Positions 3,778 to 24,094 of a stretch of 64,000 nt of DNA are shown one piece after another. The stretch covers positions 62,001 through 126,000 of the forward strand of contig NZ_LMEA01000012.1 of the NCBI RefSeq assembly GCF_001425235.1. Reading direction: 5' to 3'. The stretch is from Devosia sp. Root413D1. Lineage in GTDB: Bacteria; Pseudomonadota; Alphaproteobacteria; Rhizobiales; Devosiaceae. The stretch's first letter is position 1. The number at the start of each line of letters is the position of its first letter. A program made the position numbers and the translations under genes. The notes below the pieces were generated by a model. It made no database searches, was not told the origin of the DNA, and worked only from the letters and a program-made list of their open reading frames with translations.

Positions 3778-4699
3778 TCTCGTTCGCCGCGTCATCAGCG
3801 GGCCGACCATGGGAACCCGCTACTCGGCCGTGTTCTTCGCTCCCATAGCGCTCGATCTTTCCGTGCTGCCCGCCGCCCTAGAAGCGGTCGTGGACACGGT
3901 CGACCGCCAGATGTCCACATGGAAGCCGGAATCGGACTTGATGCGGCTCAACCGTGCGGCGGTCGGAAGGTGGGTGGACCTGCCGTACGAGGTTGCCACC
4001 GTTCTGGCAGCGGCGCTGGAGATAGGCCGATTGTCCGACGGTGCCTTCGACATTGGCGTCGGCGATCTGGTTACCGCCTGGGGCTTTGGTGCCGCCGCAG
4101 GCACGACCGATCGCCGCGCTATTGCCGCGCCAGGTGCCGCTCAGCGTTTACCCGCCCACCTCGCCCTGGAGCTCGATGAAGCTGGCCAGCGGGTGCGCAA
4201 GCATGCACAAGTCACCCTGGACCTCTCCGCCATCGCAAAGGGCTACGGGGTCGACGAGCTGGCTCGTGTGCTCGAGCGGTTCGGCGTCACGAGCTACCTT
4301 GTCTCGATCGACGGCGAACTCCGCGCCGGCCAAGGGAAACCGGACGGATCGGCCTGGCGGGTGGCGCTCGAAAGCCCGGAGTTTGGGCACCGCAGAGCCG
4401 CCGGCGTGATCGAAATTGCCGATGTGGCGCTCGCCACATCGGGTGATTACCGTCACTTCGTCGAGCGCGACGGAGTCCGCTTCGGTCACACCATGGACCC
4501 GCGTCGGCGCATCCGCCTCGGCCACGGCCCCGCTTCGGTAACGGTGCGGGCCGCAACCGCGATGCAAGCCGACGCTTGGGCAACCGCCCTGATGGTGCTG
4601 GGCCCCGAGCGCGGTAGCGAAGTCGCCTCGGCTCAGGGTCTTGACGTGCTGTTCGCAGAGCGCGAGGCCGATGCGCGCTCCCTGACGTCGACCGCTTGA
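3767..4699 (+). CDS. apbE: FAD:protein FMN transferase (ApbE family)
   Basis: 310 aa. Characteristic elements are GPTMGTRYS at the N-terminus, LDLSAIAKGYGVD, ATSGDYRHF, FGHTMDPR and the metal-site region AMQADAWATAL. ApbE transfers FMN from FAD to Thr/Ser in a Dxx(S/T)GA(T/S) motif. It overlaps the end of the PepSY-reductase gene by 11 bp, so it is co-translated. Its likely target is the DUF2271 protein two genes upstream. Oddly, no signal peptide or lipobox is visible: the ApbE fold begins about 12 residues after the ATG, and the further upstream in-frame start does not add one either, while the apparent target is periplasmic. The usual DVGGE-type segment reads SIDGELR here. Confidence 0.92.
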   Translation: MRTDLVRRVISGPTMGTRYSAVFFAPIALDLSVLPAALEAVVDTVDRQMSTWKPESDLMRLNRAAVGRWVDLPYEVATVLAAALEIGRLSDGAFDIGVGDLVTAWGFGAAAGTTDRRAIAAPGAAQRLPAHLALELDEAGQRVRKHAQVTLDLSAIAKGYGVDELARVLERFGVTSYLVSIDGELRAGQGKPDGSAWRVALESPEFGHRRAAGVIEIADVALATSGDYRHFVERDGVRFGHTMDPRRRIRLGHGPASVTVRAATAMQADAWATALMVLGPERGSEVASAQGLDVLFAEREADARSLTSTA

Positions 4700-8599: not shown

Positions 8600-8613
8600 T
8601 TGAGGCGGATCAA
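8600..8613. promoter_or_regulatory. FNR/NnrR-type box, nirK side
   Basis: TTGAGGCGGATCAA matches TTGAT-N4-ATCAA at 9 of 10 positions. It is centred about 81 bp before the nirK ATG. A class-II start point 41.5 bp downstream (about 8648) would follow a CATATT (8634-8639) in the -10 position and leave a ~40-nt leader. Confidence 0.7.
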
Positions 8614-8687
8614 AGAAGAGGGTCAGCGGCGGGCATATTCCACAGTCGAACCGGGCGCACTGGTGCCCGTAAACCGTGGAGACCCAA

Positions 8688-9836
8688 ATGGACGGTCAGG
8701 ACAAAGTAGAAGTATCGCGCCGCACGCTGCTCGGCGCCGCCGCGTTTGCCGGCGTATTCGGTGCAGTGCTTGCTTCGGTGCCGGCCCAGGCCGAGGAAGC
8801 CGGAGTGACGACCGGTCCGGCTCCTGACCTGTCGGCACTTCCGCGCAAACGGGTCGAGTTGCTGAAACCGCCGTTCGTGCATCCGCACGAGCAGATCGCA
8901 ACCGTCGGCCCCCAGGTCGTCGAGTTCCAGTTGGTCATCGAGGAAAAGCAGCTCGTCATCGACGAGTATGGCACAACCGTGCCGGCCATGACCTTCAACG
9001 GCTCGGTCCCCGGTCCGCTGATGGTGGTGCATCAGGATGACTATGTCGAGCTGACGCTGGTCAATCCCGACACCAACACGATGCAGCACAACATCGACTT
9101 CCACGCGGCGACTGGCGCGCTCGGGGGCGGCGGGCTCACGCTGATCAACCCGGGCGAACAGGTGAAGCTGCGCTTCAAGGCCACGCGCCCCGGCGTCTTC
9201 GTCTACCACTGCGCGCCGGGCGGCCCGATGATCCCGTGGCACGTCGTGTCGGGCATGAACGGCGCCATCATGGTGCTGCCGCGTGACGGGCTGAAGGACG
9301 GCGCCGGCAAGCCGCTGAAGTACGACTACGTCTACTATGTCGGTGAGCAGGACTTCTACGTTCCGAAGGACGCCGACGGCAACTTCAAGACCTACGAGTC
9401 GGCCGGCGACGGCTACGCCGACATGCTCGAGGTCATGAAGACCCTGACGCCGACGCACGAAGTGTTCAACGGCGCCGTGGGTGCGTTGACCGGTGAAAAC
9501 GCGATGACCGCCAACGTCGGCGAGACGGTGCTCATCGTTCACTCGCAGGCCAATCGTGACACTCGCCCGCACCTGATCGGCGGACACGGCGACCACGTCT
9601 GGGCTACCGGCAAGTTCAACAACCCACCCCAGATCGACCTCGAGACCTGGCACATCCCGGGGGGCTGTGCTGGCGCTGCGCTCTACACATTCCTTCAGCC
9701 GGGCGTCTACGCTTACGTTAACCACAACCTCATCGAGGCCGTCGAACTCGGCGCCACCGCCCACTTCAAGGTTGGTGGCGAGTGGAACGACGACCTGATG
9801 ACCCAGGTTCAGGCGCCCACACCGATCGACGGCTAA
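8688..9836 (+). CDS. nirK: Copper-containing nitrite reductase
   Basis: 382 aa. It has a Tat-type signal ([11 protein letters not shown]...AQA) and two cupredoxin domains. Copper ligands are visible: His134, His139, His174, Cys175, His185 and Met190, with catalytic Asp137, and the second-domain histidines in [10 protein letters not shown] and [11 protein letters not shown]. It reduces nitrite to nitric oxide in the periplasm. ATG 8688 is chosen because GGAG (8678-8681) lies six bases before it; a GTG at 8676 is in frame but overlaps that site. It is followed by nirV and faces pseudoazurin. No nitric oxide reductase gene is in the window. Confidence 0.97.
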
Positions 9837-9848
9837 GCGTCCGAAACG

Positions 9849-9877
9849 GCGGTGGCTCGACATGCACGGGCCACCGC
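9849..9877 (+). other. Intercistronic hairpin between nirK and nirV
   Basis: GCGGTGGC (9849-9856) pairs perfectly with GCCACCGC (9870-9877) across a 13-nt loop, directly after the nirK stop. It may protect the nirK mRNA end and lower expression of nirV relative to nirK. There is no U-tract. Confidence 0.5.
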
Positions 9878-11258: not shown

Positions 11259-12416
11259 CTAGAGCAGAAGGGTCTCTAGGATCATGTCGACCGACTGAAT
11301 GAGGTGTTTCGCCTGCCGAGCAGTCTCGCGGCCATGCGCTTCGGCGCTTAGCTTGTCGTGCAGCGCCTCGACAAAACCAGCAAGGCTCTCCACCATTTCC
11401 GCCGTACTGTCGGAATAGCCGCCCGCCTTGTTCCTAAGAGCGTACCGAACCCTCGCCTTCCGGGTGATCCTCGGCTCACCAAATCCCGGTTGAGAGCGCA
11501 CTGCTTCGTCAGGGGCCAGTGCATGCAATACTTGGACAAGCAGTTCTCGCGCCGAGAATGCTGCCTGCCGCTGATTGTCGGGTCTAGCGCTCAAGAAGGC
11601 CGCGCGGGCGCCGTTTCGCATGTCGACTAGTTGCTGACCAAGAGGAGAAAGAACGGCCTCTAGGTCATCCGTCGCGCCCGCGGCAAGAGCGGCGCGACCC
11701 GCCTCAGTAATAGCAAGCCAGTTCTCCGGATCTGTTACGTCGGTGTAGGTTGGCCTCAACAGGCTGTCGTTCAGGAGTTGATCCATGGAGCGCGCAGCCT
11801 CCGCTCGCTCTATGTCGGTGAACTGAAGTCCCAGTTGTGTTTCTAAAGGCCCGGGTTGGTACGACCGTCCGAGGACGTTTAACCGATGAGCACTTTTGGT
11901 TCGCGCATAGATTTCGAGGATTGCCAGCTTCGTGCCGTGATCGGTCAGTCGGGGCGGGGGCGCTTCGATCGCCTGACCGTTTGCGGCACCGTTTATGCCG
12001 AAAACCCCCGCTGCGAGGTCGGAGCAGGTGTCGTCGATGATCCGCTGCAGATCTAGACCTAGGCCCGCGCGACGATCCGTGGGCTTAGGAAACAAGCTAC
12101 CCGAGCCGTCGTTGTCATCGAAAATCCGGAGCGTCTCGATCACGAACGGGGTAAGGGCCTGCCTCAGTAGATCGGCCCTACCCGCCGCAGCTCGACCCTT
12201 GAGGCCGTAATAGGTCGTCGCTGTCGCTTTCGCGGCAGCGCGGAAGTGCTCAGCGCAGAGTTCTTCAACCTCCTCCTGGTGGGAGCTTCCCCCTAATCGG
12301 CCGAAGCCGAATGCGGCAAGCTTAGCGTCCTCAGCTTTGCGCTTGAGTGTCCGAAGGTGCTCTCGACCCGCGCGCATCGCGGCCGCCCACGCCGGTCCTG
12401 TCACCCCCTCTGTCAT
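11259..12416 (-). CDS. Unknown 385-aa protein, possible defence-associated factor
   Basis: 385 aa with no signal or membrane segment. Residues ~20-190 are helical. The middle (about 195-255) looks like a winged-helix region ending LAITEAGRAALAAG. The C-terminal part (AFSARELLVQVLHALAPDEAV...TRKARVRYALRNKAGGY) resembles the C-terminal helical domain of proteins often found in defence loci, such as predicted pPIWI-associated nucleases or Abi-like proteins, but I cannot prove this without a profile search. It is the leftmost of three minus-strand genes next to the QatABCD operon and lies in the tRNA-Phe island. Confidence 0.7.
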   Translation of the reverse strand: MTEGVTGPAWAAAMRAGREHLRTLKRKAEDAKLAAFGFGRLGGSSHQEEVEELCAEHFRAAAKATATTYYGLKGRAAAGRADLLRQALTPFVIETLRIFDDNDGSGSLFPKPTDRRAGLGLDLQRIIDDTCSDLAAGVFGINGAANGQAIEAPPPRLTDHGTKLAILEIYARTKSAHRLNVLGRSYQPGPLETQLGLQFTDIERAEAARSMDQLLNDSLLRPTYTDVTDPENWLAITEAGRAALAAGATDDLEAVLSPLGQQLVDMRNGARAAFLSARPDNQRQAAFSARELLVQVLHALAPDEAVRSQPGFGEPRITRKARVRYALRNKAGGYSDSTAEMVESLAGFVEALHDKLSAEAHGRETARQAKHLIQSVDMILETLLL

Positions 12417-13090: not shown

Positions 13091-13144
13091 CACCAAATTG
13101 TACCGACCGCGCCGTAGTATTCAAGCACACGGCCTGAGCTAGAC

Positions 13145-13423
13145 TTACGGGGCGGTCTTCCCTTTGCGAGAGAGCAGCACCTCGACTTCCGCGAGCGTCA
13201 CGCCAACGATCTGGCTGCCATCGGCGAGCTTGACAGTATAGCGGGCCGCCCCCTTGCGCCGCCCGCGACTCATCTGCATGCCGCGACCCGCCAGCATCTC
13301 GGTCAGTCGGCGCTCGTTTTCGAGTGTGTCGGCCGCCTCGATTTCCGCGAGCTTGCGAACCGCTAACTGCCGAAGGTCTTCCATCGATCCACTACTCATC
13401 GTCGTACTCGAATCGCATTTCAC
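13145..13423 (-). CDS. Small hypothetical protein, divergent from qatA
   Basis: Up to 92 aa (GTG at 13423); a likelier start is ATG 13399 giving 84 aa. The first half is a charged helix (MEDLRQLAVRKLAEIEAADTLENERRLTEML), followed by a basic RGRRKGAARY segment and a short beta-rich tail (YTVKLADGSQIVGVTLAEVEVLL). No family is recognised. It is divergent from the Qat operon with ~130 bp between them, so a regulator role is possible. Confidence 0.6.
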   Translation of the reverse strand: MKCDSSTTMSSGSMEDLRQLAVRKLAEIEAADTLENERRLTEMLAGRGMQMSRGRRKGAARYTVKLADGSQIVGVTLAEVEVLLSRKGKTAP

Positions 13424-13509
13424 TGAACGATCGATATCTTAGCACGTCCAAGTCAGGCACCCAGCGTCCAAGCAAAGACCGACATCGCACTGCTGCAGTG
13501 AATTATGAC

Positions 13510-13538
13510 TTGCAGGGTCTTCGCGGCTGCGATGTATT
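13510..13538 (+). promoter_or_regulatory. Candidate promoter of the Qat operon
   Basis: TTGCAG (13510-13515) and TGTATT (13533-13538) are 17 bp apart, upstream of the qatA ATG at 13556. A GGGGGA ribosome site follows. The match to sigma-70 consensus is moderate. Confidence 0.35.
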
Positions 13539-13555
13539 AATTTCGGGGGAACGTC

Positions 13556-15466
13556 ATGATCATTGCTGATAACGAGACGGCGGTTGACTATCTCAACTGC
13601 GAGGCGATCTCGAAAACCGTCGTTTCGGTGCTAGCCGACAATCGCAAGCAGGCAATCACCGTGGGCATTCACGGGGACTGGGGTGCCGGCAAGTCGAGCG
13701 TGCTCAAGATGATCGAACGCGACGTCAAGCCCGATGGTGCCGTCGCGTGCATCTGGTTTAACGGCTGGACCTTCCAAGGTTTTGATGACGCCAAGACGGT
13801 GCTGATCGAGGCGATCATCACCGAATTGATGCGCCAGCGTCGAACAATGGCCAAGGTCCAAGATCTCGGCAAAGAGCTTCTGCAGCGGGTCGACTTCCTG
13901 AAGCTCGCGAAGCGCGGTGTGGGGCTTGCCATAAATCTAGCAACGGGCTTGCCGTCGCCCGACCAGATCGGAGCCGCGATAGGAGGCATCAAGGATGTCA
14001 TCGGCAACCTCGGCAAGGCCTCGGCCGAGGACATAGAGGCTCAGCTCACCGAGGCGTCGAGCTATCTGAGAGATGCGAAGGGCATGACGATGCCTGACGC
14101 CGTCGACGACTTTCGAGCCCGCTTCGAGGACCTTCTGAAAGTCGCCAAAGTCGAGCAGTTGATCGTCCTGATCGACGATCTCGACCGCTGTCTGCCGGAA
14201 ACCGCGATCGAGACCCTCGAGGCGATCCGGCTGTTCTTGTTCGTGCCAGGGGCGGCGTTCGTCATCGGGGCGGACGAGGGGATGATCGAGTACGCCGTGC
14301 GTCGTCATTTCCCCGATCTGCCGGCCGCGCCGACTGCCGTGCCCTATGCGCGAAACTATCTTGAAAAACTCATCCAGGTGCCGTTCCGCATCCCTTCGCT
14401 CGGCGTACAGGAGACGCGCACCTACGTCATGCTCCTGCTGGTCGGCTCTATCGTGAAGGACGAAGCCGATCCTGGTTTTCAGAAGCTGCTAGCCAAGGCG
14501 CGCGCAGCGCTGAACTCACCGTGGCTCGCGCAATCACTCACTCAGGCCGACGTGCGGGCGGTCGACGGTAGCAAGCAGAAGGAGCTCGACGAGGCCTTCA
14601 TGCTGGCGACCCAGCTTGGGCCCATCCTGGCTGAAGGCGCCTATGGCAACCCGCGGCAGATCAAGCGTTTTCTCAATGCACTTCTGATCCGAAGGGCGAT
14701 TGCCGAAGCGAGGGGGCTGGAGACCCAAATCAACCAGGCGGCGCTCGGTCGGCTCATGCTGATGGAGCGCTTCCAGCCCGACTTCTACGAGCACATCGCG
14801 CGCAGCGCGATGGCGAGTGGCGATGGGAAGGTGGGGGAACTCGCCGAGCTCGAGGCGGCGGCCGCTCCGAGGCTAGAAACCAAGGGGCGCAAGGTCAAGG
14901 GGGCCAAGGACGACGCTGAGGACTCCAAGTGGTTGGAGCGGGACCAAATACGACTGTGGCTGCAGATCGAGCCCGCTCTCGGGGGAGAGGACCTGCGGCC
15001 CTACGTGTTCGTGGCGCGCGAGCGCAGGCTCACTGGTATCGGGCAGTCGTCGAACGATACGGAGCAACTGATCGGTCTCTTGTCGAATGGCGGTCAGATG
15101 GTCGTCCGTGGCCTGGAGCCGAGGGTCAGGCTGCTAGCCCAAAGCGACGCCAACGTCATTTTTGGAGCGCTGCGCGAGCGCGTGGTGCAGGAGCCGAACC
15201 TGTCGTCCATTCCGGAGGCGATACACGGCCTGCGCGTGGTCGCCAAACATCACGGGCACCTTCAATCCGAACTCGTAGCCCTGCTTGCAACCCTGGACGC
15301 CAAGAAATTGGGCATGTGGGCGGTGTCCGGCTGGAGCGAGTTCATCACCGAGAACGCGGCGCAAAAGCAGTTGACCGAGGTCGTCAGAAGTTGGGCGGGG
15401 CAGGATGCGAACGCGCTCCTCAAGCGAACCGCCGGACAAGCGATCGCTACGGGAAAGGCGAGCTAG
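13556..15466 (+). CDS. qatA: QatA, KAP-family P-loop ATPase of the Qat anti-phage system
   Basis: 636 aa. Walker A is GDWGAGKSS (residues 40-48) and Walker B is IVLIDDLDRC near residue 205, both typical of KAP NTPases. A glycine-rich hydrophobic stretch near 120-145 corresponds to the KAP insertion that can contact membranes. YGNPRQIKRFLNALLIRR near 365 is the sensor/arginine region of the family. In QatABCD it is the ATPase component needed for phage protection. The gene is first of four, with stop and start almost touching throughout (qatB begins at the next base after its stop codon). Confidence 0.93.
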   Translation: MIIADNETAVDYLNCEAISKTVVSVLADNRKQAITVGIHGDWGAGKSSVLKMIERDVKPDGAVACIWFNGWTFQGFDDAKTVLIEAIITELMRQRRTMAKVQDLGKELLQRVDFLKLAKRGVGLAINLATGLPSPDQIGAAIGGIKDVIGNLGKASAEDIEAQLTEASSYLRDAKGMTMPDAVDDFRARFEDLLKVAKVEQLIVLIDDLDRCLPETAIETLEAIRLFLFVPGAAFVIGADEGMIEYAVRRHFPDLPAAPTAVPYARNYLEKLIQVPFRIPSLGVQETRTYVMLLLVGSIVKDEADPGFQKLLAKARAALNSPWLAQSLTQADVRAVDGSKQKELDEAFMLATQLGPILAEGAYGNPRQIKRFLNALLIRRAIAEARGLETQINQAALGRLMLMERFQPDFYEHIARSAMASGDGKVGELAELEAAAAPRLETKGRKVKGAKDDAEDSKWLERDQIRLWLQIEPALGGEDLRPYVFVARERRLTGIGQSSNDTEQLIGLLSNGGQMVVRGLEPRVRLLAQSDANVIFGALRERVVQEPNLSSIPEAIHGLRVVAKHHGHLQSELVALLATLDAKKLGMWAVSGWSEFITENAAQKQLTEVVRSWAGQDANALLKRTAGQAIATGKAS

Positions 15467-16333
15467 ATGGGGACGTCGGGGTCTTCACGCGGCACGGGTA
15501 ACGGCGGCTCACTGATTCCGACGTTCCTTGACGAGCCGTCGAGCAAACCGCTGCCGTCGGAAGTGGCCGCGCCGGGCAGCGACGGCGATGGCAGTAGTGG
15601 CGGCGACGGCGAAAACCCGGAAGCGCCACGCCCAGACATTCCCGCGCAGGCCGAAGACAACCGATTTTCAAGCGCGCGGCGCAATTTCTCGGTGTTTGCC
15701 AGCAGTGGCGGCAGCGACACCGGAGCTCTGCGTCGTGCCGTCAGGGACTACGTGCGCTCAGGGTATGGCACCAGCGGGAACGCGACCCGTGCAATGGGAA
15801 GCTCACGGGCGACGGCCGCAGGTGTCCTTGATGTGTTGCGGAGCTTCACGCGGGACGGCGTCGCACAGACGCTTGCCCGGTTCAATCTATCGGGATTTGC
15901 CGGCAGGCCGGCGACCGAGATCCTCACCGCCCTTACCGACATATTGTGCGAGGACGGCGGCACTATCGACGAAGCCATTGCGCGAGACGCCTGGCTCGAG
16001 GCGGTGGCGTCGGTGGAGGCTGCGGGCATTGTCGATCTCGATAGCATGACGCCAGATCAGCTGAGCGAAGTGTTCCTAGCCTTCATCTCGCACTCGATTC
16101 AATCGAAGTTATTCCAGGAAATCGGCGTCAACGGTTTTCGTGTGGCCGATTTGGATGAGATCCGCGCGTTCGAGAACCAGTTCCGTAGCTACATCGACGG
16201 GCGGGTGCGAGATGCGTTCAGCGGCAACTTGAGTGAGGTTGGCACGATGTCTGATGACCGCATCCGCGCGGTTGTCGAGCAGACCTATCGCGACGCGTGG
16301 GAGGTATTCATCACCTGGGGAGATAGCGCATGA
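15467..16333 (+). CDS. qatB: QatB, Qat anti-phage system partner protein
   Basis: 288 aa. The first ~65 residues are Gly/Ser/Pro-rich and probably flexible, and the protein begins Met-Gly. Residues ~70-288 are helical: a GALRRAVRDYVRSGYGTSGNATRAMGSS region, then TATEILTALTDILC-like helices, and a final IRAVVEQTYRDAWEVF segment, matching the QatB family seen in Qat operons. Its biochemical role is not fully known. Related QueC-like proteins in type IV CBASS attach a deazaguanine to the N-terminal glycine of their partner, so the exposed Met-Gly start makes QatB the likely substrate of QatC; that link is inference. Confidence 0.9.
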   Translation: MGTSGSSRGTGNGGSLIPTFLDEPSSKPLPSEVAAPGSDGDGSSGGDGENPEAPRPDIPAQAEDNRFSSARRNFSVFASSGGSDTGALRRAVRDYVRSGYGTSGNATRAMGSSRATAAGVLDVLRSFTRDGVAQTLARFNLSGFAGRPATEILTALTDILCEDGGTIDEAIARDAWLEAVASVEAAGIVDLDSMTPDQLSEVFLAFISHSIQSKLFQEIGVNGFRVADLDEIRAFENQFRSYIDGRVRDAFSGNLSEVGTMSDDRIRAVVEQTYRDAWEVFITWGDSA

Positions 16334-17691
16334 GGCACCATAGCATCGTCGTCGCGCTCGGCGCCTCGGGTCGCCTCAACAAGAACGAACTTCACGACCA
16401 GTCATCTCAGCTCACCGAACTGCAACTGCTCGACAGCAAGGGCCGCCTGGATGGTGGTCTCGGAATGATACTCCATGAGCTCGGTGACCGGCATGTGGTG
16501 CCAAGCGAGATTGGCGTCGATCTGTTGTTGCTTGCAGCCGGCGTGACAGCTGCCGACACCCGGATTTCTCGGTCGTCGGAGGCGCAGGACAGTTGGACGC
16601 GGGAGGTCGATCTTTACGTGCCTGTCTCCGATCCGGGTTTGTGGTCGAAGCAGAAGCTGCATGTCGAGCGGATGCTGCGTTTCTTGAGCGGCGATCGGTG
16701 GCGCGTCTATTTTCGCGACCGGCCTGCCGTCGCTAAGATCCTCGCCAAGACGCCCCCCGAACTGATGAAGCCCGACTTCGATTGCGTGTCCCTATTTTCC
16801 GGGGGCATGGACAGCTTCGTCGGCGCGATCGACCTGCTGGCTTCGGGCAAGAAGCCACTCTTCATAAGCCACTACTGGGACATCAGCACCAGCTCGCAGA
16901 ACATCTGCGCGACACGCATCGGAGCGGTCTATGGCGACCTAGGGCCGCGCCATGTGCGTGCGCGTCTCGGCTTCGCCAACGGGATCGTCGATGGGGTCGA
17001 TCAGGAGACCACGACGCGCGCTCGCTCGTTCCTGTTCATCGCCCTTGCGGCACTGGCGGCGAGCGGGCTCGATGATGTCGGGCTCATTGTCCCCGAGAAC
17101 GGCCTCATCGCGCTCAACGTACCGCTTGATCCTTTGCGGCTCGGGGCGTGGAGCACGCGAACGACGCATCCGTTCTATCTCGCGCGGTGGCAGGAGCTCC
17201 TCGGCGAGTTGGGGATCAAGGCGACGGTAGCTAATCCGTACCGTTTCAAGACCAAAGGCCAGATGCTCAAGGAATGCGCGAACCAGAAGCTGGTGAGGGA
17301 TTTCGCCTACGAGACCATCTCCTGTTCATCGATCGCCAAAGCGAGGTGGCGAGGCAGGGCACCAGGTCATTGCGGTCACTGCACCCCGTGCCTGATCCGT
17401 CGGGCCGCGATGCTCGAAGCCTTCGGCGGCGACCAGACGACCTACACGCTCGCGGACTTGCGCGCGCAACCACTGAACGCGCGGGCACGCCAGAACGAGC
17501 ACATCCGGTCCTTTCAGCTGATGGGTGCACGCCTCCATACCGAAGGCGACATCGAGAAGCTGCTCGTCCACAAGCCGGGACCTCTGACCGACTATTCTAG
17601 TGCCGAGCAGGCGGACTATGCGACAGTGTTCCGCGACGGTATCAAGGAGGTTGGACGGCTCCTGGTCGGCGTTGTAGTTAGGCCCGGATGA
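16330..17691 (+). CDS. qatC: QatC, QueC-like PP-loop ATPase of the Qat system
   Basis: 453 aa, about twice the length of housekeeping QueC. The PP-loop SGGMDSF lies near residue 157 after a family-specific N-terminal region (~150 aa). The zinc-type cysteines of QueC are present in CGHCTPC near residue 347 with an upstream cysteine. QueC makes preQ0 from CDG; QatC proteins are thought to use related chemistry for protein modification. It overlaps qatB (ATGA) and qatD by four bases each. The absence of queD/queE/queF in the window argues against a queuosine biosynthesis role. Confidence 0.93.
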   Translation: MRHHSIVVALGASGRLNKNELHDQSSQLTELQLLDSKGRLDGGLGMILHELGDRHVVPSEIGVDLLLLAAGVTAADTRISRSSEAQDSWTREVDLYVPVSDPGLWSKQKLHVERMLRFLSGDRWRVYFRDRPAVAKILAKTPPELMKPDFDCVSLFSGGMDSFVGAIDLLASGKKPLFISHYWDISTSSQNICATRIGAVYGDLGPRHVRARLGFANGIVDGVDQETTTRARSFLFIALAALAASGLDDVGLIVPENGLIALNVPLDPLRLGAWSTRTTHPFYLARWQELLGELGIKATVANPYRFKTKGQMLKECANQKLVRDFAYETISCSSIAKARWRGRAPGHCGHCTPCLIRRAAMLEAFGGDQTTYTLADLRAQPLNARARQNEHIRSFQLMGARLHTEGDIEKLLVHKPGPLTDYSSAEQADYATVFRDGIKEVGRLLVGVVVRPG

Positions 17692-18452
17692 AAACTAGCG
17701 ACACCATCGCCGGGTACGACTTCCATTGCCACGTCGACCTGCAAAAGAATGCCCCCGCGTATATCGCCGAGTGCGAAACGCGGCGCGTCTTTACGCTGGC
17801 CGTAACCACGACGCCGAAGGCTTGGCCGCAGAACAAGAAGCTGATGAACGGGAGCCGGTATGTGCGCCCGGCGATCGGCCTTCACCCCGAACTTGCCGGC
17901 GATCGATATCGCGAGCTCGATCTGGTCAAACTCTGCATGAAGGAGACGTCCTTCGTCGGGGAAGTGGGCCTCGATGGAAGCCCTGAGCATATGGCCTCGT
18001 TCGAGGTGCAGCGCCGGGTGTACGGAGCGATTCTCGACGAAGCCCAGACACTTGGCGGCAAGGTCATCACGACCCACAGCCGGCGTGCGGCAACGGAAGT
18101 AATCGACCTCATTAAGGCCCGCACCACGCCCGACAGAGTCCTGAACATCCTGCACTGGTTTTCGGGTAGCAAGGGCGAACTGATCGCGGGTATCGCGACA
18201 GGCTGCATGTTCTCGATCAACCCGGGTATGGTGAGGAGCAAGAGCGGCCGAGAGCTGGTCGGCGCGATCCCAATCGACCGGCTGCTCACCGAGACGGACT
18301 CGCCATTCGGAATATGGGAAGATCGACCAGCTCGGGCCGAAGACGTCATGGGGCTCGTTGCCGCCATCGCAGAAATCAGGGGTACCGGCGCTGCGAGAGT
18401 GGCTGACGCGGTGAGGGAAAATGCGCAACGCGTCTTTGGTTTCGCAAGGTAG
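17688..18452 (+). CDS. qatD: QatD, TatD-like metal-dependent nuclease of the Qat system
   Basis: 254 aa. TatD metal ligands are visible: DFHCHVD (residues ~11-17), GEVGLDG (~91), THSRRAATE (~125), ILHWFSG (~150) and TETDSPF (~202). TatD proteins are Mg2+-dependent DNases with a TIM-barrel fold. Here it is the last gene of the Qat operon, overlapping qatC by four bases. It starts MKTSDTIAGYDFHCH, slightly shorter than E. coli TatD, with all catalytic residues kept, so it is probably active. Confidence 0.93.
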   Translation: MKTSDTIAGYDFHCHVDLQKNAPAYIAECETRRVFTLAVTTTPKAWPQNKKLMNGSRYVRPAIGLHPELAGDRYRELDLVKLCMKETSFVGEVGLDGSPEHMASFEVQRRVYGAILDEAQTLGGKVITTHSRRAATEVIDLIKARTTPDRVLNILHWFSGSKGELIAGIATGCMFSINPGMVRSKSGRELVGAIPIDRLLTETDSPFGIWEDRPARAEDVMGLVAAIAEIRGTGAARVADAVRENAQRVFGFAR

Positions 18453-18538
18453 GGGCCGCGGTAGTTGCAAAGGCGGGCTCCGAGAATGGCGACGGGAGTC
18501 CGATGGAAACAGGCCGCGGTGCCTGAGCCCTCGGACCT

Positions 18539-19034
18539 TCAATCTTTCGATTCCTTGAGACTTGGCGGACCGGGGGTCGTCGACATATGGACCATCCAGT
18601 AGGTCGCTTGCTCTTGCGTCCGTCGAGCGTCCTCTGAGTTCCGCGATCCCGGTTGCAGACCCCTGCAATGCCACGGACGTGTCTCCGCCTGCCAAAGCCT
18701 CGCAAGTTCTTGGAGCACGCCATCGACCGCCGACTGGACCGCGTAATTTCGGCACAGAGTTCGTGGCTGAAGTCCCGGTCGCGTTCGCCCCTCCGCGCGA
18801 GTTCCTCCTCAAGCTCCTGATGATCGTCGGCGCGAGCTTTCCCCGAGCGCCGCTCCAACAGGCGGTTGATGGCGACACTGCGATCCGACCGGTCCCGCGC
18901 AAGCGATTGTTGCACGCCTCGTCCGCCGACTGCTTGCGCGCGACGGCATCAGCGATGACTCGCTCGGCGAGCAAGGGCTTTTCGGTAAAGAGAGCATGGG
19001 TGAGGAGCGGGGCGAAATTGGCGATGTCGTACAT
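18539..19034 (-). pseudogene. Broken gene at the end of the island's minus-strand module
   Basis: From ATG 19034 the reading frame starts well (MYDIANFAPLLTHALF...KQSADEA), but coding character then appears to move to a second frame near 18915 (ARDRSDRSVAINRLLERRSGK, helical and charged) and to a third frame near 18742 (AVQSAVDGVLQELARLWQAE) that ends at TGA 18541-18539. Read together these give one helical protein of about 160 residues; no single frame does. The first frame continues far into the antisense of qatD, which is not credible coding. Either two frameshifts inactivated it or there are sequencing errors. No family is recognised. Confidence 0.5.
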
Positions 19035-21306: not shown

Positions 21307-21388
21307 GACACACCGTGTGTCATCGGCACTGTGTGTCATTGGTGCGGCATATACGTCAACCACTTTGTGTGTCATTGGTGTGGCATGT
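21307..21388. promoter_or_regulatory. Repeat-rich control region between divergent regulators
   Basis: The space between the excisionase-like gene and the Arc-type gene holds GACACACCGTGTGTC (21307-21321), a palindrome, and GTGTGTCAT three times (21315, 21331 and 21367). The last two are part of a longer near-identical repeat of 22 bp (21331-21352 and 21367-21388) that runs over the Arc-type start codon. This looks like an operator array for one or both regulators, with autoregulation of the Arc-type gene. Confidence 0.65.
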
Positions 21389-21786
21389 CACGAGAAGATT
21401 TGCATTTCCGGCTTCGCATCCCCGAGGCACTCAAAAATCGCATCGAGGCTGCGGCGCTAGCGAGCAGGCGCAGCATGACCGCGGAGATCATCGCTCGACT
21501 GGAACAATCGGTTGAGATTGACGATCTGCACGAAAAACCTGGGGAACAGGCGGTGCTGTTGGCACCTTTGCTCCAGGCGGTGGACGAGCAACTACGCCAG
21601 AGGTTCGAGCCCTACATATCCTCGCTGAACAAAGCTCTGGAGGTCGCGCTGGACCCGAGCGTCACCAACGAGCAGCGAGCCGAAATGCGCGCGGGACTGG
21701 CAGAGGCCAATAGCAAGACACCGCAGCGATCAAGGAAATCAACAAAGGCGGGTGCCGCGGCCGCCTCGAAGGGCGGGCGGCCGTGA
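21385..21786 (+). CDS. Arc-type ribbon-helix-helix DNA-binding protein
   Basis: 133 aa from ATG 21385. The start LHFRLRIPEALKNRIEAAALASRRSMTAEIIARLEQS is a classic Arc-family ribbon-helix-helix (beta strand then two helices). A helical middle follows, then a basic Lys/Ala-rich tail. It lies just before the integrase gene and overlaps it by four bases (GTGA), suggesting control of integrase. No strong ribosome site is seen before the ATG because the operator-like repeat fills that place. In-frame upstream ATGs fall in the repeat region and are not preferred. Confidence 0.85.
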   Translation: MSREDLHFRLRIPEALKNRIEAAALASRRSMTAEIIARLEQSVEIDDLHEKPGEQAVLLAPLLQAVDEQLRQRFEPYISSLNKALEVALDPSVTNEQRAEMRAGLAEANSKTPQRSRKSTKAGAAAASKGGRP

Positions 21787-23012
21787 GCGTCCGCAAGCGC
21801 AAATGGACGTCCAAAGGCGTCGAGCATGAAGCTTGGGTCGTCGACTATGTCGACGGCGCAGGCGCCAGACGACTGAAAACCTTCTCGAAGAAGAAGGAGG
21901 CGGACGCCTTTAGCGCCGCGTCCAAGGTCGAGATACGCGACGGCGTGCACGTAGCCGACAGCGCGAGCGTCGCCGTCAAGGAAGCGGGACGACTCTGGTT
22001 GTCGACGGTGGGCAAGGCCGGGCGAGAGCAATCGACGCTAGACCAGTATCGGCAGCACCTCGAATTGCACATTGTCCCGTTCATCGGCGACACCAAGTTG
22101 AACGCCCTCACCCTGCCAGCCGTTCGCGCCTTCGAGGACGGGTTGCGGGACGACGGCCGCTCTGCAGCCATGGTCCGCAAGGTTCTCGTCAGCTTGGGTT
22201 CACTGCTCGCGGACGCCCAGGAACGCGGCCTCGTCGCCCGCAACGTCGTGAGAGAGCGAGGGAGGCGGCGCAAGGCAGATGCGCGGCAGGAGCAACGCGC
22301 CAAGGGCCGCTTGCGTGCCGGGATCGACTTCCCCCTGCCCTCGGAGATCAAGGCCCTGGTGGCGCATCTGGCGGGCCGCTGGCGCCCATTGCTGCTAACC
22401 GCGATCTTCACCGGGCTGCGCGCGTCTGAGCTTCGAGGCCTCACATGGTCCGCACTCGACCTTGAGGGGAAGGTACTCAAGGTTCACCAGAGAGCGGACA
22501 GGTATAACGCGATCGGTCGCCCGAAATCGGCCGCCGGCGATCGCGAGGTGCCTATGCCTCCGATCGTCGCCAACGCGCTCAAGGAATGGCGCCTCGCGTG
22601 TCCCCGCGCCGACACCGGCAAGAAAGACGCGGACGGCCAGCCGATCAAGGAGCTGCGCCTGGCGTTTCCCAATACCATCGGCAAAGTTGAGAGCCTCGCC
22701 AACATCATCAATCGAGGGCTGATCCCCACGCAACTCGCGGCGGGCATCGCGCACGATATCGGGAAGGTCGACGAGGATGGTCAACCCGTTCTCGTCGCCA
22801 AGTACACGGGGATGCATTCGCTCCGGCACTTCTATGCCTCGTGGTGCATCAACCGGCGGGCAGACGGGGGGCTTGAGCTCCCGGCCAAGGTCGTGCAAGA
22901 GCGCCTCGGGCATTCGACAATCGCGATGACAATGGATGTGTACGGGCACCTTTTCCCTCGAGGTGATGACGGACAGGAGTTGGCAGCTGCCGAGGCGGCG
23001 TTGCTTGCATGA
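21783..23012 (+). CDS. Tyrosine-type site-specific integrase
   Basis: 409 aa, GTG start. It has an N-terminal arm-binding part, a SAM-like core-binding domain (~70-170), and a catalytic domain with the Arg in TGLRASELRGL, the HSLRHF box, the LGHS box and the nucleophile Tyr in MTMDVYGHLF. This is the P4/lambda-like integrase class that uses tRNA 3' ends. It sits about 1 kb from the tRNA-Phe 3' fragment at 24000-24049, which is very likely its attachment site. It is coupled by overlap to the Arc-type gene before it and to the DUF2971 gene after it. Confidence 0.95.
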   Translation: MSVRKRKWTSKGVEHEAWVVDYVDGAGARRLKTFSKKKEADAFSAASKVEIRDGVHVADSASVAVKEAGRLWLSTVGKAGREQSTLDQYRQHLELHIVPFIGDTKLNALTLPAVRAFEDGLRDDGRSAAMVRKVLVSLGSLLADAQERGLVARNVVRERGRRRKADARQEQRAKGRLRAGIDFPLPSEIKALVAHLAGRWRPLLLTAIFTGLRASELRGLTWSALDLEGKVLKVHQRADRYNAIGRPKSAAGDREVPMPPIVANALKEWRLACPRADTGKKDADGQPIKELRLAFPNTIGKVESLANIINRGLIPTQLAAGIAHDIGKVDEDGQPVLVAKYTGMHSLRHFYASWCINRRADGGLELPAKVVQERLGHSTIAMTMDVYGHLFPRGDDGQELAAAEAALLA

Positions 23013-23935
23013 CCACGCCCGAGGTTGACCTCTCGAAGCTTGTTCCCAAGGACGTTGAGCGGTTCAAGCTGTTCTTTGGATCGTTGACCGCGAGAAGGCA
23101 GCCAACGCCGGAGACGCTTTGGCACTACACTTCCGGGGCTGGCCTCGTGAACATCGTGCGTAGCGGGATGCTCTACGCGACCCAAATAAGCTGCCTCAAC
23201 GACAGTAGGGAATATGTGCACCTGGCGAGCATCGTGGCGGCCGAGCTAGCGGAGCGGCTACGTGGGACTGCTGACGCGGGCCTGAGGCAACTTTACGGGC
23301 ACCTAGCATCCAACCTCACAACCGCCACGGACGTCGCAGCGGCGAACGTGTTCGTTGCCTGCCTGAGCAACGCTCGCGACGATCTGGGCCAATGGCGAGG
23401 CTATGGGGCTGGCGAATGCGGCTTCGCAATAGAGTTGGTAACCGAAGACGTCCTGACCGCGTTGGAAGCCCGCGGCGGCCCCAGCCCTTTACTCCGGGTG
23501 GAGTACGAGGAAGAGGAGCAGAAGGCGCTCGCTCGCGTGTTGCTCGACAACGTGGCGGACCTCTTCAAGCAAGGTCCCCAACGCCCCGAATATGAGCCGC
23601 TTTGGACCACGGTCCTCGGGCAAGGCTACTCCGATCTAGCTATGATCGTGCATGCGAAAGTGAAACACCCAAGCTTCCGTGCTGAGCAAGAGTACCGGAT
23701 TTTTACTCGCCTCCTTCCAGACGAGCACGAGCGTATGGAGTTCACCGGGAAGCGAACTTTGCTGTCCCGGCACATACCAGTTCGGCTCGGCGAGCGGTTG
23801 CCCATCCGGTCGATAATGGTAGGGCCGAGCGGCAACCAAGCATCAAGCCGCCTGAGCGCCGGTGACCTTCTCAAAAAGTATGACTACGGTGAGCCGCCGA
23901 TCCACCTAAGCGGCGTGCCCTATCGCGAAGTCTAG
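23009..23935 (+). CDS. DUF2971 protein, coupled to the integrase
   Basis: 308 aa. DUF2971 features are visible: LWHYTSGAGLVNIVRSGMLYATQISCLNDSREY near the start, FVACLSNARDDLGQWRGYGAGECGFAIEL, a HPSFRAEQEYRI box, and SIMVGPSG near the end. DUF2971 proteins often occur in defence islands and on mobile elements, but no activity is known. Its ATG overlaps the integrase stop (ATGA), so it is co-translated with integrase, and it is the last gene before the att site. A cargo or accessory defence function is inference. Confidence 0.88.
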   Translation: MTTPEVDLSKLVPKDVERFKLFFGSLTARRQPTPETLWHYTSGAGLVNIVRSGMLYATQISCLNDSREYVHLASIVAAELAERLRGTADAGLRQLYGHLASNLTTATDVAAANVFVACLSNARDDLGQWRGYGAGECGFAIELVTEDVLTALEARGGPSPLLRVEYEEEEQKALARVLLDNVADLFKQGPQRPEYEPLWTTVLGQGYSDLAMIVHAKVKHPSFRAEQEYRIFTRLLPDEHERMEFTGKRTLLSRHIPVRLGERLPIRSIMVGPSGNQASSRLSAGDLLKKYDYGEPPIHLSGVPYREV

Positions 23936-23999: not shown

Positions 24000-24049
24000 G
24001 CGGATTGAAAATCCGCGTGTCACTGGTTCGATTCCGGTCCCGGGCACCA
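24000..24049 (+). other. tRNA-Phe 3' fragment, probable attachment site of the island
   Basis: The sequence runs from an anticodon arm (GCGGA, loop TTGAAAA with anticodon GAA, TCCGC) through a T-arm (ACTGG, TTCGATT, CCGGT) to CCCGGGC, discriminator A and CCA. This is the 3' part of an alphaproteobacterial tRNA-Phe. The 5' half (acceptor strand, D-arm) is missing from the sequence just upstream, so it is not a functional tRNA. It lies beside a tyrosine integrase gene, as expected of an att site made by integration in a tRNA 3' end. Confidence 0.85.
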
Positions 24050-24094
24050 CTTTCCTCCAAAGACAACATCGACGTATCACGCCGAGCCCACGGC

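Follow-up and report, generated by a model that had tools for sequence, protein, structure and literature searches.

Does the QueC-like enzyme QatC of the Qat anti-phage system depend on 7-carboxy-7-deazaguanine (CDG) made by its host? This question is raised by a qatABCD operon at 13556-18452 of a 64,000-nucleotide stretch of Devosia sp. Root413D1 (contig NZ_LMEA01000012.1, positions 62,001 to 126,000 of the forward strand; hereafter the window). CDG is the product of QueD and QueE and the substrate of QueC (PMC13329287), and by analogy with Cap9, i.e., the QueC-fold enzyme of type IV CBASS that also acts on the N-terminal glycine of its partner, QatC has been proposed to conjugate a deazaguanine to the N-terminal glycine of QatB (PMC13279940). 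The latter, structural paper treats the identity of the group that QatC attaches to QatB as an open question. The defence system in the window is of a known type; what is new is its host, in which QueD, QueE and QueC are not detectable. Intact Qat operons recur in such CDG-less hosts, and the simplest reading of this pattern is that the substrate of QatC is probably not host-made CDG, with the copy in the window presumably being a working one.

By its sequence, the locus is a complete qatABCD operon of four adjacent plus-strand genes, i.e., a textbook Qat system (Table 1). All four products exceeded their NCBIfam equivalog cut-offs (778.9 bits vs. a cut-off of 600 for QatA with NF041923, 173.6 vs. 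100 for QatB with NF041924, 501.3 vs. 280 for QatC with NF041925, and 286.3 vs. 230 for QatD with NF041926) and matched the PADLOC profiles with top E-values of 1.1e-233, 3.4e-83, 1.7e-174, and 3.8e-83, respectively, and these scores are far beyond chance. This bears out the initial annotation, which had called the four-gene operon at these coordinates and had named a failure of Qat profiles on QatB or QatC as grounds for rejecting it; both proteins matched. The motifs it had listed were present as well. QatA carries the Walker stretches GDWGAGKSS and LIVLIDDLDR and a KAP domain (PF07693, 148.5 bits), QatC carries SGGMDSF and C-x15-CGHCTPC, and QatD scored above the cut-off of the TatD domain (PF01026) and matched the solved relative 3gg7_A at 3e-51. 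The QatD sequence reads HxH, GEVGLDG, THSRR, LHW, and TETD in the stretches that we take to hold the TatD metal ligands. The few-base gene overlaps described earlier hold for the qatB/qatC and qatC/qatD junctions (4 bases each) and not for qatA/qatB, where TAG is directly followed by ATG and the genes abut. A single shared promoter region, also claimed, is unproven, as a simple sigma-70-type promoter scan of 13100-18800 yielded 0 sites vs. 1.0 in shuffles and says little. That the operon is a decayed remnant seems extremely improbable: no support for decay was found, the four frames are open over their full family length, and the junctions just described and the checked motifs are intact.

QatC fails the canonical QueC (preQ0 synthase) cut-offs, with no match to TIGR00364 (QueC) at E<=0.001 and a PF06508 score of 20.1 bits that is below the cut-off of 22. 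It aligned near full length (residues 1-452) with solved QatC chains (9vlk_A at 7.1e-138 and 9zee_B at 1.9e-136), with its N- and C-terminal extensions covered by these matches, and QatB aligned with the solved QatB chains 9vll_A (5e-46) and 9zee_A (3.6e-37). According to the structural paper (PMC13279940), QatB and QatC assemble at a ratio of 1:1, and this complex is by itself sufficient for protection against some phages, with QatA and QatD affecting the phage range, which leaves the emphasis of the initial annotation on a nuclease dated. The paper also reports that QatB cannot do without its N-terminal MGTS (the G2D mutant being dead), that the ATP loop and two threonines of QatC (T278/T280 in P. 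aeruginosa) are likewise essential, and that QatB starts are often misannotated. The window copy retains D64, SGGMDS (157-162), T276/T278, and the four zinc cysteines C332/C348/C351/C354 in QatC, and its QatB starts with MGTSGSSRG, with Pro18 and Phe20 as the conserved proline and aromatic residue of the tail after MGTS. Cap9 and QueC have a Tyr/Asp pair that reads CDG, whereas QatC has the Thr/Thr pair at this place (PMC13279940). QatBC crystals grown with CDG and ATP contained ATP only, QatBC activity could not be rebuilt in vitro, and the authors themselves already raised a distinct QatC substrate and called the reaction unresolved (PMC13279940). In comparison with the solved qatABCD systems (PDB 9vlk, 9vll, 9zee, 9zef), the window thus has the same four genes, gene order, QatB start, and QatC active site, and the difference lies in a host without detectable queD, queE, and queC. 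The charge patch between QatB and QatC named in PMC13279940 is altered in the window copy (R407 is kept as R401, while R410, H413, and R414 are replaced by T, D, and I, and the QatB residues N175, E179, D181, and E182 by E, S, E, and A), but this was dropped as a special trait, the same positions varying widely in other aligned rows.

The host genome in which the CDG pathway was sought comprises 5.85 Mb in 14 contigs and is 100% complete. No PTPS/QueD was found in it by a search that was positive in 9 of 14 control genomes, no QueE by a profile that detected it in 34 of the 48 further Qat genomes, and no QueC, with three weak matches turning out to be NAD synthase, ArgG (argininosuccinate synthase), and MnmA. 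The tRNA enzyme TGT, on the other hand, was found with 499 bits. Since TGT is present and QueD, QueE, and QueC were not found, the host probably salvages a queuosine precursor without synthesizing CDG, and the small molecule that QatC would use here cannot then be CDG of the host's own making, as the required genes went undetected.

Were Qat dependent on CDG from the host, QueE would be expected in nearly all of its carriers. In an even set of 385 genomes of the host's own class, all four Qat genes were present in eight genomes. QueE occurred in 3 of these 8 carriers vs. 116 of the 377 others (Fisher p-value of 0.71), and QueD in 2 of the 8 vs. 131 of the 377 (p-value of 0.72), so that Qat is found in hosts lacking detected CDG synthesis about as often as would be expected of two unrelated traits. 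For these counts, QatC matches at E<=0.001 were obtained in 30 genomes, of which 17 with scores under 25 bits were taken as noise. A first count of 12 genomes was reduced to eight by dropping four with stand-alone QatC-like genes (G450, G303, G208, and G205), and G245, which has QueE and a 65.8-bit match lying at the end of a contig, stayed outside the count; its inclusion would give 4 of 9 carriers with QueE. QueE was counted in this sample at scores of at least 50 bits, plus G451, in which the match is truncated at a contig end next to the PTPS gene, while G401 (40.7 bits) was left out, and scoring was limited to 7 candidates per genome. In the literature searched, no comparison of Qat with QueD/QueE was found; two other QatBC structure papers lay outside the reach of this search.

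The same question was put to Qat operons from many phyla (80 loci kept of 178 confirmed relatives), of which 50 loci were chosen, mostly from isolates, and 48 genomes were searched. With QueE cut-offs set on the own and these further Qat genomes (matches of 31 bits or less being taken as other radical-SAM enzymes, and those of at least 42 bits as QueE), QueE was present in 34 genomes, QueD, QueE, and QueC were all missing in seven (G067, G077, G085, G095, G100, G107, and G108), and seven were ambiguous. Three of the all-missing genomes (G077, G107, and G108) are uncultured or metagenome records that have no completeness figure, and the remaining four are isolates that include three Bacillota, a phylum without a QueE seed; QueD and QueC are missing there too. 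Within the host's own genus, G011 carries a full Qat operon, also without QueE and QueC. The ambiguous genomes comprise four with QueC above the cut-off and neither QueE nor PTPS (G064, G073, G098, and G102), one with QueC and PTPS and no QueE (G066), and two with PTPS and neither QueE nor QueC (G080 and G087). What feeds QueC in the first four is puzzling, no QueD or QueE being found near their queC genes.

These seven ambiguous genomes, which have QueC and/or PTPS and no QueE, are what speaks for the possibility that seemingly CDG-less hosts do make CDG with QueE or QueD enzymes missed by our profiles. We nevertheless regard this as quite unlikely. No QueE turned up in the 8 stretches searched around queC or PTPS in the ambiguous genomes, QueD and QueE co-occur in 101 genomes of the class sample (QueD being found in 133 and QueE in 119), and QueD, QueE, and QueC are jointly missing in the host genome of the window, in which TGT was found.

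As to whether Qat operons are still alive where CDG synthesis is not detected, 13 operons from such hosts were counted, i.e., the own one, those of G011, G173, G403, G448, and G360, and those of the seven all-missing genomes. QatC D64, S157/D161/S162, T276, T278, and the four cysteines were kept in all 13 rows, and the paired QatB started with MGTS, VGTS, or LGTS in 13 of 13, the VGTS and LGTS starts presumably stemming from GTG or TTG start codons. On a QatC tree of 57 rows, the 13 CDG-less rows need 10 label changes, nine of them forced by well-supported branches (shuffled mean of 11.8 changes, 55 of 500 shuffles giving no more than 10), and these operons are thus scattered over the tree. 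For the pair of G011 and G403, which are CDG-less hosts from different families, the ratio of nonsynonymous to synonymous substitution rates (dN/dS) was 0.076 for QatC and 0.065 for QatB. Dead genes would not be expected to look like this, though the copies of G011 and G403 could both have been maintained by selection in other hosts, prior to their arrival.

The latter point touches on the main alternative, in which CDG is the true co-substrate of QatC, and Qat either sits idle in CDG-less hosts or is supplied with CDG from elsewhere (i.e., by cross-feeding, or by phages with queD and queE). Cap9 does conjugate CDG to an N-terminal glycine (PMC13279940, PMC11996544), and the MGTS start of QatB is alike. 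Moreover, the operon lies between integrative repeats and can thereby reach hosts whatever their metabolism. We consider this alternative doubtful, as QueE and QueD are not in excess among Qat carriers, dN/dS is low between two CDG-less hosts, Qat from such hosts appears repeatedly over the tree with an unchanged active site, and Thr takes the place of the CDG-reading residues in QatC (PMC13279940).

Several points nevertheless weigh against the reading that QatC does not use host-made CDG. The carboxydeazaguanylation proposal is repeated in PMC13329287, and an operon that is mobile can remain idle wherever the host lacks its substrate. With eight Qat carriers in the class sample, a modest association would be missed. 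The QueE profile was built from 5 seeds, none of which is from Bacillota, and the absence of PTPS alone is no proof, as QueE was found in G103 and G112 and PTPS was not. The CDG-less label was given without a QueC test in G173, G403, G448, and G360, and without a QueD test in G011. On the QatC tree, the 37 rows labelled as CDG-able show some clustering (13 changes vs. a shuffled mean of 16.7, with 14 of 500 shuffles as low), which also favours CDG as a co-substrate. Finally, dS between G011 and G403 is 1.4-1.5 and hence near saturation, and a second CDG-less pair is saturated.

Beyond the question of host-made CDG, the Qat family as a whole may well not run on 7-deazaguanine at all. The QueC scaffold would then have been redirected to another common small molecule, or would serve solely to activate the N-terminus of QatB at the expense of ATP, and Qat would be a distinct N-terminal protein modification that is independent of the queuosine pathway. 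In the mechanism as proposed, QatC would attach CDG or a similar compound to the glycine at the QatB N-terminus, QatB would then act against the phage, and QatA (a KAP NTPase) and QatD (a TatD nuclease) would widen the phage range. In our reading, QatC in general most likely uses another, common metabolite in place of CDG.

Type IV CBASS offers a comparison, in that it would need a host able to make CDG (with QueD and QueE, as inferred from its reaction), and neither enzyme was found in the window host. No match to a CBASS profile, and with it no nearby CD-NTase gene, was found among the 18 proteins scanned, 17 of which were from the window and which did not cover every open reading frame. Among 114 plasmid records with a match, the best was the Roseibium aggregatum plasmid NZ_CP045635.1, the QatC of which is 70% identical to that of the window; this Qat operon is plasmid-borne and lies beside two AAA ATPase genes. 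Its qatB (L011:4138-5004) yields MGTSGSSRGTG when started at 4138 instead of the annotated 4411, and this restored MGTS fits the published remark on misannotated QatB starts (PMC13279940).

The stand-alone QatC-like open reading frames dropped from the class sample have counterparts among the relatives (G020, G026, and G050, the last with two loci). They were rejected as Qat, with no QatA, QatB, or QatD in the same stretch. QatC-like proteins from long open reading frames of this kind (459-683 aa; L150, L151, L152, L153, and L155-L158) also have no STRTTHP stretch and apparently form a separate branch of QueC-like proteins.

The mobility invoked above is suggested by the setting of the operon, which lies between the copies of a perfect 52-bp direct repeat, 60,664 bp apart, at tRNA-Phe. 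The intact tRNA-Phe gene was located by ARAGORN further left on the contig, outside the window, while ARAGORN found no tRNA in the window itself, where the repeat has one match and none would be expected by chance. The interval corresponds to contig 25388-86051, so that its right part is window 1-24051 and its left 36,664 bp fall outside the window. The tyrosine integrase lies just inside the right repeat, with the Arc-like gene directly upstream of it (4-base overlap).

Table 1. Window coordinates of the Qat genes and of other features of the island.
Feature	Position	Strand	Description	Evidence
qatA	13556..15466	+	636 aa, KAP-family P-loop NTPase	NF041923, PADLOC QatA, PF07693
qatB	15467..16333	+	288 aa, presumed modification substrate	NF041924, solved chains, N-terminal conservation
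qatC	16330..17691	+	453 aa, QueC-like ATP-using enzyme	NF041925, solved QatC
qatD	17688..18452	+	254 aa, TatD-family metal-dependent nuclease	NF041926, 3gg7_A
Predicted pPIWI-associating nuclease domain protein	11259..12416	-		PF18165 100.4 bits (cut-off 26.3); PADLOC Aga_Nuclease 1.7e-6
Arc-like DNA-binding protein	21331..21786	+		PF03869 34.9 bits (cut-off 20.4)
Tyrosine integrase	21783..23012	+		PF00589 50.9 bits (cut-off 27.1); phrog_1 integrase 1.3e-56
DUF2971 protein	23009..23935	+		Weak PADLOC candidate PDC-S31 match (3e-4)
Right repeat	24000..24051	+	3' part of tRNA-Phe gene	52 bp identical to intact tRNA-Phe to the left

Because of the repeat at tRNA-Phe, the integrase, and the differing sequence past the tRNA in same-genus genomes, the interval is an island with integrative-element ends. 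The initial annotation had placed the whole operon on an integrative element; the direct repeat agrees with this, but a movement of all 60.7 kb as one unit is not shown. In nine same-genus stretches (L193-L199, L201, and L202), similarity on the left side reaches the tRNA end and the sequence past it differs. No clean empty site was seen downstream of tRNA-Phe in these nine, and none clearly continues into the own right flank, L196 matching 14 bases past the repeat, which are too few to decide. One of them, L198 (G001), carries island-like, fixLJ-like sequence 7-11 kb downstream of its own tRNA-Phe, with 65-73% identity to the left island part (contig about 26.9-27.6 kb and 32.0-33.4 kb). Given this likeness near its tRNA-Phe, tRNA-Phe may be a repeated entry point, or part of the 60.7 kb may have been present before the element.

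Further genes of the island include fixL-like, fixJ, ccoN, ccoO, ccoP, hemN, ubiU, and nirK, the last being a plus-strand gene around 8610-9863 of the window. This low-oxygen respiration set and an anti-phage operon at the integrase end make an unusual cargo mix for one island. The neighbour with a predicted pPIWI-associating nuclease domain lies slightly upstream of qatA and is not part of Qat; among the open reading frames scanned, nothing Argonaute-like was recognised next to it. The DUF2971 gene is situated between the integrase and the right repeat, and overlaps the integrase frame by 4 bases.

Intact Qat operons in genomes without a detectable CDG pathway amount to natural gene-deletion tests of the leading idea on QatC. 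If Qat works in such CDG-less hosts, CDG would not be the substrate, the Thr/Thr replacement in QatC would be explained, and the hunt for the substrate could move on to metabolites that all bacteria share. Should Qat be idle in these hosts, the spread of Qat by mobile elements would be blind to the ability of the host to use it.

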